Shown here: piece after piece, positions 1,108 to 5,032 of the stretch
Layout of the letters: each line of letters begins with the position of its first letter
How positions within the stretch are numbered: the first letter of the stretch is position 1
Assembly (NCBI GenBank): GCA_946482355.1
Contig: CAMLRE010000196.1
Location: 1-5,032, forward strand
Source: an uncultured Bdellovibrio sp.
GTDB lineage: Bacteria > Bdellovibrionota > Bdellovibrionia > Bdellovibrionales > Bdellovibrionaceae
DNA length: 5,032 nucleotides
Direction of reading: 5' to 3'
Position numbers and translations under genes: made by a program
The notes under the pieces: model-generated
What the model was told of the DNA's origin: nothing
The model's database searches: none
Seen by the model: the letters and a program-made list of their open reading frames with translations, nothing else

Positions 1108-4053
1108 CTATTTTCCCCCTAATGAAGCTATTTTATCTTCAATTTGTTTTCTGTCCAGCGCATTTGGCGAAAGTTCGATGTAAAGTTGGAATAATTCTTT
1201 GGCCTGCTTACGGTCGCCTTGGGCTTCCATAATAAAACCTTTTTCGCGGTACAGGGGAGCAAAGCCGCTTTCTTTAGTGCGCGCAATTTCAAGCATGTCT
1301 AAAGCGATGTCCATGGCGTCACTTTTTCGGTAGCAAGCGGCCGCTTTAACGTAAAGATCAGCCGATGTCGGGCGAAGCTTAATACCTTGCGAATATTCAG
1401 CCGCACATTCTTTAAACTGTTCTTTAGCGTTGTAAACCGTAGCCGCCAGTAAGTATGGATCAGCGATACCAGGGTTTTTTGATTTTTCTTCTTTAATCAT
1501 CTCAAGAGCTTTATCAAATTCGCCCAATTCAAAATGACAGCGCGCTAAGAAATACGAAATACGCGGGTAACTTGGGTTAATTCTTCGAACCATTTCAAAT
1601 TTTTTGTAAGCACTTTGAATAACCGCATTAGCATCTTTACTGCCCGGATTTTCTAATTCAAGCTGGGCTGTTGAAAATAACGGTTCAACATCAGATGGAT
1701 CAAGAACAGCAGCATCCATAAAATATTTTTGTGCCGTTTTAATCTCGTTCATGTACTGGTTAGATCTTGCTAAACCCATTAAGGCTTTTTTGTTTTTAGG
1801 ATCAGCCTCAACAATTTGTGCATAGATTTCAGAAGCTGAACGGTATTTTTCTTGAAGTTCATAGAAATCAGCTAAGCCTAAGCGATAATCAATCGTGTAC
1901 GGAAAAGTTTCGATTAATTTTTTAAAATTATTTTCAGCGGCGATATTACCTTGTTTGGCATAAAGATATTTTGAATAAGTAATCTGCGCTTCAGGTTTAC
2001 CGGGCTCAAGATCGACGGCTTTACTTGAATATCTTTGGGCATCTTCTAAGTATTTTGCTTTACGGTTTTCTTCTTCTTTTGTACGCGACGGAGAATTTAA
2101 AAATAGACTGATATTCGCATTTGCGATTAAACTTAAAAGCTCAACATCAGCGTCATACATTTTTACAGCTTTTTCGCCGTAAGTGATCGCCGTCGTCATG
2201 CTGTTTTTACGAAATTCAACAAGCGCCTGGGTTTTTACGATATCAAAGTTTTGCCCGCCGGCTTTAAGACCGTCTAACAAAGCTTTGCTGGCTTCGCCGA
2301 AAGCATATTTTTGTGAAAGGTAATCTGCTTTTTGCGCATAAGCTTGAGAAAGTTTCGGATCAGCTCGGATCGCACGGTCGACCCACATTAAGGCTTCACG
2401 CGTTTGGTTAATTGCCCATAAACTTTTCGCAGCTTTTAGTGCGGGCTCTGCATTTGTTTTATCAAATTCAAATGCCGCTTTGTACTGCGCTTGCGCAGCT
2501 AAGTGGTCACCCGATCTTGCGAATTGATCGCCTAAGAAAACTAATTCTGCTGATTGGTTGTTTCCGCGGTCTTCACCACCTAGTGACATCACAAGTTCTT
2601 TAATGGCTCTGTGGCTTGGGCTGATCGTTAGGGCAAACTGACCGACATCTAAGGCTTTTGAAGTATCTTTTCTAGAAATTAATAACTGGATGTATTCTTG
2701 AAGTGCATCCATGTGAAAGCTCTTCGGAAGTTTTCCGTCAATTGCATACGCGCGGCCAAAAAAGTTCAACGCTTTTTCTGCGCTTGAATTTTTTAATTCA
2801 ATTAAGCCCATGCCATAAAGAGCGCCTTTATGTTCTGGGTAATCGCGAAGAATGTTTGTGTAGGCATCTTGAGCTTCTTTGATTTTACCCTGTTTGTAAT
2901 ATGAACGCGCTAAAGCAAACTGCGCCCATGCCCAGCCAGGAAACGATTTAACGGCTTCGACGTAATAGGCTTCAGCGCTGATGTGATTTCCCATATCTTC
3001 AAGGATTTGACCCTTCATCAGATATAAGAACGGAAATAAAATAAATCTTTCACCCGATTGTTGATCAAGTGTTCTTTCAATCAAACCGCGTGCATCGCGC
3101 GGTTGGCCTTTAGCTAATAGGTAAACTGATTGGCAAGCATCTGAGTAACTTGAAATCGGATTCACCGTGCGCGCCATTTGAGTCACGACGGTAATCGCTT
3201 TTAAATCGTTTGAATTTTGTTTCGTGTAGGGCCACAGCTGTTCATACACCACACATAGTAAACCTAAAGTTTCTAAATCATTCGGAGAATTTTCAGAAGC
3301 TTGCGCTAAAAACTTTTGTGAATCACGCGTGTTTTCTAAGGTTCCGTTTTTAATAAGCTGAATCGCTTTTGCTTTAAGAGATTTAATTTCTGGTGCAGTT
3401 AATGTTTTTTCTGCTCCACGGGTTGGTGCAATTAAAACCCAGCCACTGTTGTTTTTTGCTCCCGGTTTTAAAACCCAGTAAAGACCTGCCGCCACAAGAA
3501 TAATTATAATAATAAATGGAAAGAACTTTTTAGATTCTTTAGCCTGAATACTTTTTAATTGCTGCATTTCGATCGTGAGCTGTTGGTCACGAGCTACTAA
3601 CAAGGCATTATTGTCAGCCGGGGTAATTGATGAAATGCCTGGTGTGCGGGCCACAGCACGATCAGGAACAACCGCCACCGGTTTTTTCATTTCTTCTTCG
3701 ACGAGTTGTTTGATTTCGTCTTTGAATTCAGGAACTTCTTCTACATCAGGCGGGGCTTCGACAACGTCTTCAGTGGGCTTTGATTGAATCTGCGTTTCAG
3801 CATCCATCTTCGCTGCTTTTTTTTCATCGCGCTCAGTTGGATTTTCTAAAGACTCTAAAAGCGCTTCATAAAATTCATGAACTTTAGCCAGTGGACGCCA
3901 TTCAGCGCTTGGGTGCTGAGCCACTTCTTCTTGGCCCGTTAAGATACCTTCAACAATCATCTTACTGATAGATTCACTTGGAAACGGCCCCTTGATTTGG
4001 CCATTCTCCATTTTGACTCTCCACTGATCGTTAAAATTTACTCTTTTTCCCAC
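1108..4053 (-). CDS. GYF-like domain / single TM / giant TPR-repeat envelope protein
   Basis: A 981-residue protein in four parts. Residues ~10-65 resemble a GYF_2-type domain: W11-R-V, NG, then GPF at 22-24, a helix, EVAQHPSAEWRPL. Residues ~66-150 are an acidic, proline-containing, low-complexity linker. A short helix precedes one strong transmembrane segment at ~177-195 (FFPFIIIIILVAAGLYWVL), flanked by KESKK, which predicts N-inside. From ~220 to ~970 runs a long TPR array with repeated ALA/Y...G and A...DP spacings, such as AEAYYVEAVKSFPG, AQDAYTNILRDYPE, AQKYFMDAAVLDPSD and KALEMIKEEKSKNPG. The inferred topology is a cytoplasmic GYF head with a ~780-residue periplasmic TPR solenoid acting as a protein-binding scaffold. 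GYF heads on membrane proteins occur in myxobacterial gliding machinery (GltJ-type), but I cannot show orthology. The start is GTG, directly after an in-frame TAA and without a clear SD. An in-frame ATG at codon 15 (4011) has a good SD but would lose the conserved Trp. Probably the first gene of the serS operon. Confidence 0.88.
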   Translation of the reverse strand: MGKRVNFNDQWRVKMENGQIKGPFPSESISKMIVEGILTGQEEVAQHPSAEWRPLAKVHEFYEALLESLENPTERDEKKAAKMDAETQIQSKPTEDVVEAPPDVEEVPEFKDEIKQLVEEEMKKPVAVVPDRAVARTPGISSITPADNNALLVARDQQLTIEMQQLKSIQAKESKKFFPFIIIIILVAAGLYWVLKPGAKNNSGWVLIAPTRGAEKTLTAPEIKSLKAKAIQLIKNGTLENTRDSQKFLAQASENSPNDLETLGLLCVVYEQLWPYTKQNSNDLKAITVVTQMARTVNPISSYSDACQSVYLLAKGQPRDARGLIERTLDQQSGERFILFPFLYLMKGQILEDMGNHISAEAYYVEAVKSFPGWAWAQFALARSYYKQGKIKEAQDAYTNILRDYPEHKGALYGMGLIELKNSSAEKALNFFGRAYAIDGKLPKSFHMDALQEYIQLLISRKDTSKALDVGQFALTISPSHRAIKELVMSLGGEDRGNNQSAELVFLGDQFARSGDHLAAQAQYKAAFEFDKTNAEPALKAAKSLWAINQTREALMWVDRAIRADPKLSQAYAQKADYLSQKYAFGEASKALLDGLKAGGQNFDIVKTQALVEFRKNSMTTAITYGEKAVKMYDADVELLSLIANANISLFLNSPSRTKEEENRKAKYLEDAQRYSSKAVDLEPGKPEAQITYSKYLYAKQGNIAAENNFKKLIETFPYTIDYRLGLADFYELQEKYRSASEIYAQIVEADPKNKKALMGLARSNQYMNEIKTAQKYFMDAAVLDPSDVEPLFSTAQLELENPGSKDANAVIQSAYKKFEMVRRINPSYPRISYFLARCHFELGEFDKALEMIKEEKSKNPGIADPYLLAATVYNAKEQFKECAAEYSQGIKLRPTSADLYVKAAACYRKSDAMDIALDMLEIARTKESGFAPLYREKGFIMEAQGDRKQAKELFQLYIELSPNALDRKQIEDKIASLGGK
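4009..4022 (-). promoter_or_regulatory. Internal SD plus ATG: alternative start of the TPR protein
   Basis: GGAGA (4022-4018) lies 6 nt upstream of an in-frame ATG (4011-4009, codon 15). The annotated GTG at 4053 has no comparable SD. With the predicted promoter at 4060-4088, transcription would begin near 4053, giving this ATG a normal ~40-nt leader. The GYF-like fold argues for the longer form because W11 precedes this ATG. Two N-terminal isoforms are also possible. Confidence 0.35.
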
Positions 4054-4059
4054 TTATCT

Positions 4060-4088
4060 ATTATGAAATGGATTCGAAATTCTGACAT
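4060..4088 (-). promoter_or_regulatory. Possible sigma-70 promoter of the TPR-serS operon
   Basis: On the minus strand, ATGTCA (4088-4083, 4 of 6 matches to TTGACA), a 17-nt spacer, then CATAAT (4065-4060, 5 of 6 matches to TATAAT). The predicted +1 falls at about 4053, on the GTG itself. This would make a GTG-started message leaderless. It is only a fair match in AT-rich DNA, so confidence is low. Confidence 0.35.
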
Positions 4089-4134
4089 TCAAATCGTAAA
4101 AAATCGGACCCAACTTATGACCAAAGTCCATCAA

Positions 4135-4164
4135 TGGAACCAGGCGGCAGTTCCAACTTGGAAC
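4135..4164. promoter_or_regulatory. Three TGGAAC half-sites: candidate enhancer-binding-protein site
   Basis: TGGAAC occurs at 4135-4140 and 4159-4164, and its reverse complement GTTCCA at 4150-4155. The last two form a perfect 15-bp palindrome, GTTCCAACTTGGAAC (4150-4164); the first two form an inverted repeat with a 9-bp spacer. The palindrome centre is about 92 bp upstream of the +1 predicted for the sigma-54 promoter at 4223-4237, which is the normal distance for an NtrC-family activator site. An IHF-like match (AATCAAGCGGTTC, minus strand, 4173-4161, 8 of 9 specified positions) overlaps its right edge. The site could equally control the divergent TPR operon, whose start is about 100 bp away. 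The regulator is unknown. Confidence 0.5.
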
Positions 4165-4182
4165 CGCTTGATTTCATTAGGG

Positions 4183-4196
4183 ATTTCTAAAGAAAT
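4183..4196. repeat. Small inverted repeat between operator and sigma-54 promoter
   Basis: ATTTCT-AA-AGAAAT is a perfect 6-bp-arm palindrome centred about 60 bp upstream of the predicted sigma-54 start. It could be a second protein-binding site. A short AT-rich palindrome is easily a chance event. Confidence 0.25.
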
Positions 4197-4222
4197 TAAA
4201 CAGGTCTAGAACTGTCTCAAGT

Positions 4223-4237
4223 TGGCACATCAGTTGC
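4223..4237 (+). promoter_or_regulatory. Sigma-54 (RpoN) promoter, consensus -24/-12 elements
   Basis: TGGCAC (4223-4228), five bases, then TTGC (4234-4237), preceded by T and followed by TTT. This reproduces the YTGGCAC-N5-TTGCW pattern of RpoN promoters, with exactly 10 nt between the invariant GG and GC. Taking the C of GC as -12 places +1 at about 4249. Such promoters need an ATP-driven enhancer-binding protein, and palindromic half-sites lie at the right distance upstream (4135-4164). The next feature downstream is a 48-codon ORF beginning at 4252. The motif match is exact; activity is inferred. Confidence 0.8.
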
Positions 4238-4251
4238 TTTAACAACTTCAC

Positions 4252-4398
4252 ATGAAATGGGTTGCAGTTGCATACATCATCGCAGTTTTGGTGATCTCAG
4301 CGAAAGCTAAGGCCATCAGCGACGAGCAAGCAGTAAACGCAACTTCGTTTTCAGATTCGACTACGGTTTTTGATTACCAAGCGAAGATCTCTGAATAG
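4252..4398 (+). CDS. 48-residue predicted exported peptide, unknown
   Basis: ATG at 4252 to TAG at 4398, 48 codons. The N-terminus looks like a Sec signal peptide: K2, hydrophobic core VAVAYIIAVLVIS (4-16), then AKAKA with a plausible cleavage after residue 19 or 21. The remaining ~27 residues (ISDEQAVNATSFSDS...) are polar, Ser/Thr-rich and acidic, with no Cys and no lipobox. No family is recognised. The ORF sits directly behind a consensus sigma-54 promoter and is followed by a terminator, so it is a self-contained transcription unit. There is no Shine-Dalgarno, and the predicted +1 (about 4249) leaves only ~3 nt of leader, so translation would be leaderless. The stop codon lies in the loop of a strong hairpin (4386-4412). 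The signal-peptide pattern and the promoter fit favour a real gene; the main alternative is that the transcript acts as an RNA. Confidence 0.62.
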   Translation: MKWVAVAYIIAVLVISAKAKAISDEQAVNATSFSDSTTVFDYQAKISE

Positions 4399-4498
4399 CA
4401 GTATTCAGGATCCCCTCCCAGGATAGGCCTCAGAGCTTTGTTTGGTAAATATAGATTCTTAAGTTCAAAATCATGCTGGTAACAGCAGCGGTTTTTAA
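4386..4498 (+). ncRNA. Structured 3' region of the sigma-54 transcript (3' UTR or small RNA)
   Basis: Two hairpins can be read by eye. The first pairs GATC (4386-4389) and CTGAATA (4391-4397) with TATTCAG (4402-4408) and GATC (4409-4412): 11 bp with one bulged T and a GCAG loop. The second is TGCTG-GTAA-CAGCA (4474-4487), a 5-bp stem closed by a GNRA-type GUAA tetraloop. Between them lies a C-rich run, CCCCTCC (4412-4418), followed by AGGATAGGCCTC. GGATCCCCTCC (4408-4418 region) resembles the 3' end of bacterial 16S rRNA (GGATCACCTCC) with one difference. The region ends at the terminator at 4499. I find no known riboswitch core. It may be a structured 3' UTR of the peptide ORF or the functional part of a small RNA. 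Confidence 0.42.
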
Positions 4499-4542
4499 AA
4501 GGCAAGTTTGTGGCCCCTCCTCGAACTTGCCTTAATTTTTTT
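4499..4542 (+). terminator. Strong intrinsic terminator of the sigma-54 unit
   Basis: A perfect 10-bp stem AAGGCAAGTT (4499-4508) / AACTTGCCTT (4524-4533), then AA and seven T (4536-4542). The 13-15-nt loop is unusually large and C-rich and contains CCCCTCC (4514-4520). The U-tract is much better in the rightward direction, so this ends the transcript begun near 4249. Confidence 0.85.
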
Positions 4543-4551
4543 CCCCCAAAA

Positions 4552-4656
4552 TTTTTTCCACCACAATAAAATTTAGACTGCGTTGCTGCGTCGGCGGCCT
4601 AGTAGAACTAGGGCCTTCTCCTTGCGCCTTGCTAAATTTCATTGTGATGAAAAAAA
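4552..4656. repeat. About 100-bp imperfect palindrome, probable dispersed intergenic repeat
   Basis: The outer arms CACAATAAAATTTAG (4562-4576) and CTAAATTTCATTGTG (4632-4646) pair at 14 of 15 positions and extend raggedly into a T-run (4552-4557) and an A-run (4650-4656). In the centre, CCTAGT (4598-4603) pairs with ACTAGG (4607-4612) around an AGA loop, extended by GG/CC past a bulged G. The intervening arms (GCGTTGCTGCGTCGGC and CTTCTCCTTGCGCCTTGC) are GC-rich and do not pair well, so the AT-rich ends and GC-rich core contrast sharply with each other and with the flanks. No ORF is present. The form suits a REP- or MITE-like non-autonomous element; a copy search would settle it. Confidence 0.6.
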
Positions 4657-4684
4657 TCATCTCTTCGATTCATGAAATATAGGC

Positions 4685-4707
4685 GAACTGCCTTCGGCGT
4701 TCTTTTT
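4685..4707 (+). terminator. Terminator-like hairpin
   Basis: GAAC(T)GCC (4685-4692) pairs with GGCGTTC (4696-4702) through 7 bp and one bulge, with a 3-nt TTC loop, followed by five T (4703-4707). No rightward gene ends immediately before it; the nearest rightward unit already has its own terminator at 4499-4542. It may be a backup or a decayed copy of the next hairpin, whose core sequence it resembles. Confidence 0.4.
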
Positions 4708-4714
4708 AGGAAAT

Positions 4715-4749
4715 AAAAAAAGGAACTGCTTTTGGCGGTTCCTTTTTTG
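4715..4749 (-). terminator. Intrinsic terminator of murA, bidirectional
   Basis: GGAACTGC (4722-4729) pairs with GCGGTTCC (4735-4742) over 8 bp, including one T-G wobble, with a TTTTG loop. It is flanked by seven A (4715-4721) and six T (4743-4748), so it has a U-tract in either direction. It lies about 26 nt past the murA stop codon on the minus strand and also blocks rightward read-through into murA. Confidence 0.8.
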
Positions 4750-4774
4750 TTTTTCATTTTGATTTAATTTTTGC

Positions 4775-5032
<258 letters not shown>

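Follow-up and report, generated by a model that had tools for sequence, protein, structure and literature searches.

Several small RNAs, among them Qrr, GlmY/GlmZ and CrcZ, are transcribed from sigma-54-dependent promoters with upstream activator sites. The Cuckoo RNAs (CcsR1-4) carry C/U-rich anti-Shine-Dalgarno (anti-SD) loops with the motif CCUCCUCCC. In the CIN1 locus of Alphaproteobacteria the small-protein ORF ccaF1 is described as preceding the CcsR sRNAs on one transcript, which encodes an RNA-binding protein of the DUF1127 type, starts at an RpoHI/RpoHII promoter and ends in a Rho-independent terminator (PMC10253847, PMC8625941). For the mycobacterial RNA B11 it is reported that either of two C-rich loops represses a reporter with a G tract in the 5' UTR, and the title of reference 42 in that paper speaks of chaperone-independent binding (PMC10470900). 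In Bdellovibrio, an RNA-seq study of B. bacteriovorus from 2013, by its own account the first to report ncRNAs in this genus, gives eight attack-phase sRNAs of strain HD100 with starts between 499,375 and 3,416,607; according to its description, reads were counted in intergenic regions and putative ORFs with homologues were removed (PMC3627812). A screen so described would therefore miss the unit presented here if its ORF were annotated.

The window analysed here is a stretch of 5,032 nucleotides from an uncultured Bdellovibrio sp. (contig CAMLRE010000196.1). A preliminary description had proposed in it a sigma-54-driven, leaderless gene for an exported peptide of 48 residues. This observation is confirmed here, but the object is larger and different in kind, most likely an RNA with two functions that is conserved in the Bdellovibrio group.

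The locus, its relatives and its promoter

The minus strand of the window carries the 5' part of serS, a 104-codon ORF, a 981-codon gene of the GYF/TPR type and the 3' end of an EPSP-synthase family gene, which we read as murA. The plus-strand unit (Table 1) sits between the TPR gene and the convergent murA. In the interval that separates it from murA (4560-4750) there is also a strong terminator-like hairpin (4716-4748), with an A tract before it and a T tract after it, which could serve murA on the other strand.

Table 1. Features of the unit in the window (positions counted from the first nucleotide)
Feature	Position	Strand	Basis
Putative enhancer (UAS) of a sigma-54 activator	4119..4165	+	GACCAAAGTC at 4119-4128, three half-sites
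Half-sites GGAACC, GTTCCA and GGAACC	4136-4141, 4150-4155 and 4160-4165	+	
Sigma-54 (RpoN) -24/-12 promoter TTGGCACATCAGTTGCT	4222..4238	+	Exact consensus
48-codon ORF, predicted leaderless	4252..4398	+	10 homologues, codon pattern
Helix H1, 5' strand, within the ORF	4374..4384	+	10/11 pairs changed on both sides
Hairpin with loop motif 1	4402..4425	+	Loop invariant, stem varies in register
Helix H1, 3' strand	4438..4448	+	Covariation
Small hairpin H2	4474..4487	+	4/5 pairs changed on both sides, 98.2% of cells paired
Intrinsic terminator hairpin with loop motif 2 and T tract	4500..4542	+	Fold, covariation

A protein search with the window peptide returned 10 homologues, all of 48 aa and with 60-98% identity. 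One of them is a 48-aa hypothetical protein of Pseudobdellovibrio sp. HCB154 present in NCBI (98% identical), so that the earlier remark that the product is not covered by standard annotation holds in part only. One locus was taken from the contigs of a named genome, a Pseudobdellovibrio MAG with a TPR protein of 97% identity, and relatives were collected from 140 genomes of the same order as this MAG. The peptide alignment matched 11 of these 140, among them G059. In this genome the locus (L011) has an ORF of 255 codons, with the shared segment at its N-terminus, and also a sigma-54-like site; it was set aside and stands outside the RNA model. This ORF, on the minus strand, is possibly the longest form of the family, and its C-terminal DPLH...VFVLGISS end resembles a 131-aa protein described below. 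Genome G051 (locus L021) was contributed by the RNA model search and not by the peptide alignment. The resulting Pseudobdellovibrio-type set comprises 11 genomes, or 12 sequences with the window included. Promoter, ORF, hairpins and terminator follow each other in one conserved order. In the wider family described below, gene order was read by eye, from translated ORFs and not from a domain search, at 11 loci: a GYF-type gene lies upstream in 10 (L027 being ambiguous), murA lies downstream in 10 (all but L060), and nine have both.

The exact RpoN motif that had been claimed was found again at 4222-4238; it is the sole exact sigma-54 match in the window, and none of 200 shuffles contains one. 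With C4237 taken as -12, the predicted +1 falls at 4249. The claimed start about 3 nt before the ATG agrees with this position and is, as a prediction, supported by sequence comparison, and the claimed absence of an SD follows, since a predicted leader of only 3 nt is too short to hold one. A sigma-54 site is present in 12/12 Pseudobdellovibrio-type loci, window included (L004 and L006 read TGGCAT), and lies 13-14 nt before the ATG as counted from the -12 C in this 12/12 set, L008 being listed with 18 nt. The predicted leader measures 2-3 nt in 11 of the 12 loci and 7 nt in L008. The RpoN DNA-binding domain was detected in 11 of the 12 genomes of relatives searched, G053 being the one where it was not found. 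Both marks of a sigma-54-dependent unit, a correctly spaced -24/-12 element and RpoN in the genomes of relatives, are thus present.

The wider family includes loci that we call Bdellovibrio-type, of which 30 were fetched. All 28 that could be parsed have a sigma-54 site; in 23 of 26 parsed loci, though, the leader measures 29-39 nt, and a loose pattern recovers an SD-like stretch in 21 of 26. The leaderless character claimed for the window's gene can therefore be upheld as a prediction for the window's own clade, to which it is mainly confined, and not for the family as a whole. Outside that clade, the Bdellovibrio-type locus L077 (G031) has a predicted 3-nt leader, and starts without a leader may thus have more than one origin.

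Upstream of the promoter, three GGAACC-type half-sites with near-constant mutual spacing occur in 12/12 Pseudobdellovibrio-type loci. As a rule they stand near -86, -73 and -63 relative to the -24 box; L004, L006, L008 and L013 have them farther upstream. A GACYWWRGTC element is likewise found upstream in all 12. The pattern TGGAACCN5-8GTTCCA matches at the promoter locus and nowhere else in each of the 11 Pseudobdellovibrio-type genomes; of five Bdellovibrio-type genomes, three have it elsewhere and two lack it. The reversed control pattern gave matches in 3 of the 16 genomes searched.

The short ORF and its longer relatives

The peptide encoded at 4252-4398 begins with MKWVAVAYIIAVLVISAKAKA, a putative signal-peptide or membrane-anchor segment. 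A Pfam scan of the window peptide found 0 families. Coding was examined in a block of 22 codons around the start and the SAKAxA stretch, aligned for 12 loci. Third positions vary at 22 of 22 codons, first positions at 13 and second positions at 8, and the synonymous bias that the preliminary description had asked to be looked for is thus visible over the whole hydrophobic segment. Over all pairs, synonymous codon differences (501) slightly outnumber non-synonymous ones (489), whereas the two shifted frames give 116/887 and 27/950 and are interrupted by stops in 12 and 9 of the 12 rows, respectively. Nei-Gojobori estimates were obtained for 37 of the 66 pairs, with medians of 0.27 for dN and 1.5 for dS. 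In three rows, whose start lies one codon later, the first column of the block is non-coding; these rows add non-synonymous differences, and therefore the bias runs against the coding result. Judged by this codon pattern, the hydrophobic segment of the ORF is under protein-level purifying selection, in the right frame only. Relatives that keep the promoter and hairpins and break the frame had been named as what would refute the proposal; no such relative was found, since 12/12 Pseudobdellovibrio-type loci, window included, keep an ORF with the hydrophobic segment. The part of the peptide after this segment is poorly conserved, and peptide length ranges from 38 to 73 aa within the window's clade while the RNA is retained.

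In the Bdellovibrio-type loci, which were found via weaker matches of the RNA model, the ORF has about 131 codons and the same kind of N-terminal hydrophobic segment. In six contigs of this type the locus lies at 66-71 kb, and in the other contigs elsewhere. Of the 140 genomes, 40 match an alignment of the 131-aa form, none of them among the 11 window-type genomes. Thirty of the 40 were fetched; of the ten others, seven match in the N-terminal segment and not beyond it. When the predicted 131-aa protein (mean pLDDT 70.5) was used in a fold search, it gave weak OB-fold matches, the best at E 3.1e-3 and none at 0.001. A protein search with the same form gave 116 matches at E up to 1. The last nine (P0118-P0126) are proteins of 72-74 aa, one of 117, which have the hydrophobic segment at 78-96% identity and also carry DPLP; they share 18-21% of the 131-aa query and differ in the rest. 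So strong a conservation of a signal-peptide-like segment is unusual.

The structured 3' part and its CCCCUCC loops

The unit had been said to be closed by its own terminator, and this is the case, although the terminator lies about 100 nt past position 4398, where the unit had been taken to end, and the stretch in between had been missed. The terminator consists of a hairpin at 4500-4532 and a T tract to about 4542; 8 of its 12 pairs are changed on both sides, with 98.5% of cells paired. The predicted transcript (4249-4546) folds with a z score of -4.21, and 0 of 200 shuffles are as stable. In the alignment of 11 loci, 24 of 33 pairs are changed on both sides and 93.9% of cells are paired, values that none of 500 shuffles attains. 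The covariation score is 0.655 versus 0.321 in shuffles, none of 500 reaching it, and slid controls give at most 9 pairs, the structure having been derived from the same sequences as those used in this test. One of five covariation measures, the number of further pair types, was at the level of the shuffles (45 versus a mean of 43.8, reached by 186 of 500). The weakest helix is the motif 1 hairpin, with 77.8% of cells paired and two registers.

With E up to 0.1 accepted, a covariance model of the 3' part (R1) matched 30 of the order's 140 genomes, 11 of them below 1e-26. Locus L021, from outside the set used to build the model, was recovered at E 5.1e-28 together with its promoter and ORF. In the phylum's 228 genomes outside the order, the same threshold gave matches in four (G182, G193, G238 and G271), the best at 2.4e-5. 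This best match (L044, in G238) has no promoter by pattern and only one, isolated CCCCTCC, and was judged to be due to chance; L042, L046, L047 and L048 were dropped, being without CCCCTCC. L045 (G271), also outside the order, combines a terminator-like hairpin, whose loop holds a single CCCCTCC, with a sigma-54-like site some 730 nt farther up, and is possibly a distant member. The more distant loci L027, L028, L031, L033, L038 and L039 have two or three successive hairpins with a CCCCTCC loop or a variant of it, on very different stems. In L031 the ORF ends directly after the hydrophobic segment (36 aa), and L038 and L039 have no convincing peptide. Among weak matches inside the order, L032 and L034 show tandem loops and no promoter by pattern; L041 has a poor one.

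The motif CCCCTCC occurs in the window at 4412-4418, within CAGGATCCCCTCCCAG, and at 4514-4520, in the terminator loop. Both loop motifs are invariant in all 11 aligned loci and read AGGANCCCCUCCC after the stop and UGGCCCCUCCU in the terminator loop; in L009 the AGGANCCCCUCCC motif lies inside the ORF rather than after its stop. Most loci have CCCCTCC two or three times per transcript. The bases before CCCCUCC vary by loop and locus (GGAU, GGAC, GGAA, UGGC). Dimerisation through the GGATCC palindrome was considered and rejected because relatives carry GGACCC or GGAACC. CCCCUCC is one base apart from the 16S anti-SD tail CACCUCC. The 16S tail itself (GGATCACCTCC) was found in 5 of 12 genomes; seven gave no match, including G047 with a 3.3-Mb contig.

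The pattern GGANCCCCTCCCN75-105CCCCTCC matches 39 of the 140 genomes of the order, once in each, and its reversed control none. These 39 are the 11 window-type genomes and 28 in which the site adjoins or overlaps a match of the 131-aa alignment. A looser pattern, CCCCTCCN25-55CCCCTCC, matched 155 of 368 genomes; outside the order its frequency was about that of the reversed pattern when compared by eye, untallied, and it was not used as evidence. With both types taken together, 107 of 108 CCCCTCC sites have at least three of their seven bases in a predicted hairpin loop, versus 49 of 180 controls, made from six loci by shuffling the flanks and leaving the motif unchanged. If five of the seven bases are required, the figures are 60 of 108 and 34 of 180. 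Mean unpaired probabilities of the loops are 0.70 and 0.79, not far above the 0.63 of flank-shuffled sequences.

Bdellovibrio-type loci have one CCCCTCC inside the ORF and usually two more downstream, in tandem terminator-like hairpins. The copy in the ORF encodes part of DPLP, which is present as such or as the variant GPLP in 25 of 28 parsed loci, the remaining three having neither. Its codons are CCC CTC in 24 of 24 distinct genes, whereas CTC serves at 11 of the 316 other Leu codons of these genes, and at seven of the eight other conserved Leu columns the genes differ, with three to six codons in use. Of the other 55 conserved columns, five likewise have a single codon; the GTG start is one of these and the GTG that directly precedes DPLP another. 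L071 encodes Gly instead of the Asp of DPLP, with CCCCTCC kept. On the evidence of codon usage, the motif inside the Bdellovibrio-type ORF is under RNA-level constraint. In L009 and L021 it is in frame within an ORF of 69-73 aa.

Hfq (PF17209) was found in 0 of 12 genomes (G001, G046-G048, G050-G055, G058, G026), and the same search was positive in 5 of 14 control genomes, E. coli included. The usual helper of trans-acting sRNAs would then be missing, which speaks against an sRNA reading. Candidate targets were sought with GGAGGGGN4-9ATG, which gave 72 sites in 12 genomes versus 20 for the reversed pattern. The sites are few: each Pseudobdellovibrio-type genome has 2 to 8, and the one of Bdellovibrio type has 18. 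Seventy-one were fetched (one of two overlapping readings being dropped) and 48 of them precede ORFs of at least 90 aa; 10 of these 48 were Pfam-scanned, one to two members per recurring group. Candidate GGAGGGG SD sites recur at subtilases (G026, G048, G058), at trypsin-like proteins (G026, G055, G001 and G047, the last two being close relatives), at DksA/TraR-type proteins (G046, G048, G054) and at an exported endonuclease-like protein (G026, G054). The recurring DksA/TraR-type loci are L206, L216 and L239, and those with subtilase genes L196, L211 and L253; between L216 and L239 the stretch CTAGGAGGGGAATTAGATG is identical while the proteins are 63% identical. By a home-made rule, 20 of the 48 candidates and 6 of 29 control genes have signal-peptide-like starts (p 0.049), a weak enrichment that becomes 18 of 45 (p 0.068) without the close relative G001. 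The screen is a lead only, because it was unplanned before the data were seen, its control is small and its baseline comes from samples of three genomes.

Reading of the unit and comparison with described RNAs

We consider it on balance probable that the unit is a sigma-54-dependent dual-function RNA of about 295 nt, which encodes a small peptide and acts as an SD-blocking sRNA with C-rich loops. As far as comparison of relatives can tell, the promoter, the enhancer, the coding of the peptide, the RNA structure and the invariant loops are all supported, and an ORF under protein-level selection, as expected of a dual-function sRNA, was found; a regulatory role, with candidate targets only, is probable. 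In such a system, a dedicated enhancer-binding activator on the GGAACC half-sites would turn on transcription at 4249, and ribosomes would begin directly at the 5'-terminal AUG. The product would be a small signal-like or membrane-anchored peptide, whose coding is indicated by comparison and whose export or insertion and function are presumed. The 3' half, overlapping the last codons, is predicted to fold, with the support of covariation, so as to present the two CCCCUCC loops. These may mimic the 16S anti-SD tail, pair with GGAGGGG-type SDs of other mRNAs and block their translation without Hfq, an idea suggested by the match to the 16S tail, the repeated identical loops, the lack of a recognisable Hfq and the precedent of B11. 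Since murA is convergent, we rejected the idea that the RNA acts in cis as a switch on the next gene.

The view that the tiny exported product is the whole point of the unit is not supported: the CCCCUCC loops are invariant, the 3' end of the ORF takes part in the covarying helix H1, and the peptide drifts in length while the RNA is kept. An ordinary sigma-54-driven gene for an exported or membrane small protein, with a 3' structure serving only as mRNA stabiliser and terminator, seems quite unlikely to us: it would agree with the well-supported coding of the peptide and with a Bdellovibrio version that is a 131-aa protein with weak OB-fold matches, but a stabiliser needs no invariant loop, and here the loop sequence stays the same while stems change, recurs on most transcripts and is fixed at codon level inside an ORF. 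The opposite simplification, in which the RNA is an sRNA without coding function and its short ORF a chance feature or a remnant, is highly improbable; the drift of the ORF and its poorly conserved region past the hydrophobic segment would suit it, yet that segment is under purifying selection in the right frame only, and an ATG stands 2-7 nt from the predicted +1 in 12/12 loci.

It is rather doubtful, though somewhat less so than a plain protein gene, that the loops serve not as an antisense seed but to capture or dock some protein able to recognise C-rich RNA or the 3' tail of the 16S RNA, as a decoy would. Candidate proteins are ribosomal protein S1, Era or another CU-binding protein. Motif 1 (GGAUCCCCUCC) resembles the 16S end GGAUCACCUCC, tandem identical loops fit protein sequestration as well as pairing, and the finding of no Hfq in the 12 genomes is in keeping with such a role. 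Era, however, reads a GAUCA element, and since CCCCUCC alone is constant and the preceding bases vary, this element is not kept.

Within the dual-function reading, we tentatively suggest, as a possibility still well short of even, that a protein gene is turning into a regulatory RNA. The motif would have lain first in the codons for DPLP of a 131-aa protein, then in frame in an ORF of 69-73 aa (as in L009 and L021) and finally after the stop; in most of the window's clade the stop precedes the motif, and motif and structure would outlive the protein. The proposed direction would be from 131 to 48 codons. A leaderless message would stay translated while its own loops occlude SDs elsewhere, and ribosomes at the stop would open or close H1, coupling peptide synthesis, and perhaps thereby the state of membrane export, to sRNA activity. 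The unit as a whole would be a clear case of the same bases carrying coding and regulatory information, with possible stages of the change preserved in living species. Predatory bacteria change gene programmes between hunting and growth. An RNA that many genomes of the order conserve, that has a promoter, an enhancer and a loop motif of its own, and in whose relatives no Hfq was found (0 of 12), offers a testable entry to their post-transcriptional control.

No description of this Bdellovibrio-group RNA was found in the literature searched (most subscription papers and preprints were outside its reach), nor was the combination of a sigma-54 promoter, a predicted leaderless peptide and a motif that is coding or non-coding depending on the genome met there. 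An Rfam cmscan of 3990-4800 at E up to 10 gave 20 matches, none to 6C and none at the gathering score; a FuFi-1 match on the minus strand (25.2 bits versus a cut-off of 59.6) was taken as chance.

The unit resembles the Cuckoo/CcsR RNAs with CcaF1 in having a small-protein ORF and CU-rich hairpins, here predicted to share one transcript, an alternative sigma factor promoter and a terminator. It differs in that the peptide is of the signal or membrane type, the promoter is of the sigma-54 type, the start is predicted to be leaderless and the RNA overlaps the ORF. The Cuckoo motif has 0 matches on both strands of the window, where the loops read CCCCUCCC and GGCCCCUCCUC, and the DUF1127 protein is without a counterpart, the Pfam scan of the peptide having found 0 families. 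Because protein family, promoter and loop sequence differ, we do not regard the unit as a member of this group. With 6C and B11 of Actinobacteria it shares C-rich loops, which would act, if at all, as in those RNAs; it is set apart by the loop sequence CCCCUCC and by the lack of an Rfam match to 6C, on which we know of no ORF or sigma-54 promoter. A -24/-12 promoter and upstream activator sites before an sRNA are common to this unit and to Qrr, GlmY/GlmZ and CrcZ, which have other folds and targets and to our knowledge are not leaderless mRNAs. Like the dual-function RNAs SgrS and VcdRP, the unit would combine a small protein and a base-pairing RNA on one transcript; unlike them, it has a helix that uses coding bases and, in Bdellovibrio-type genomes, a copy of the motif inside the ORF itself.
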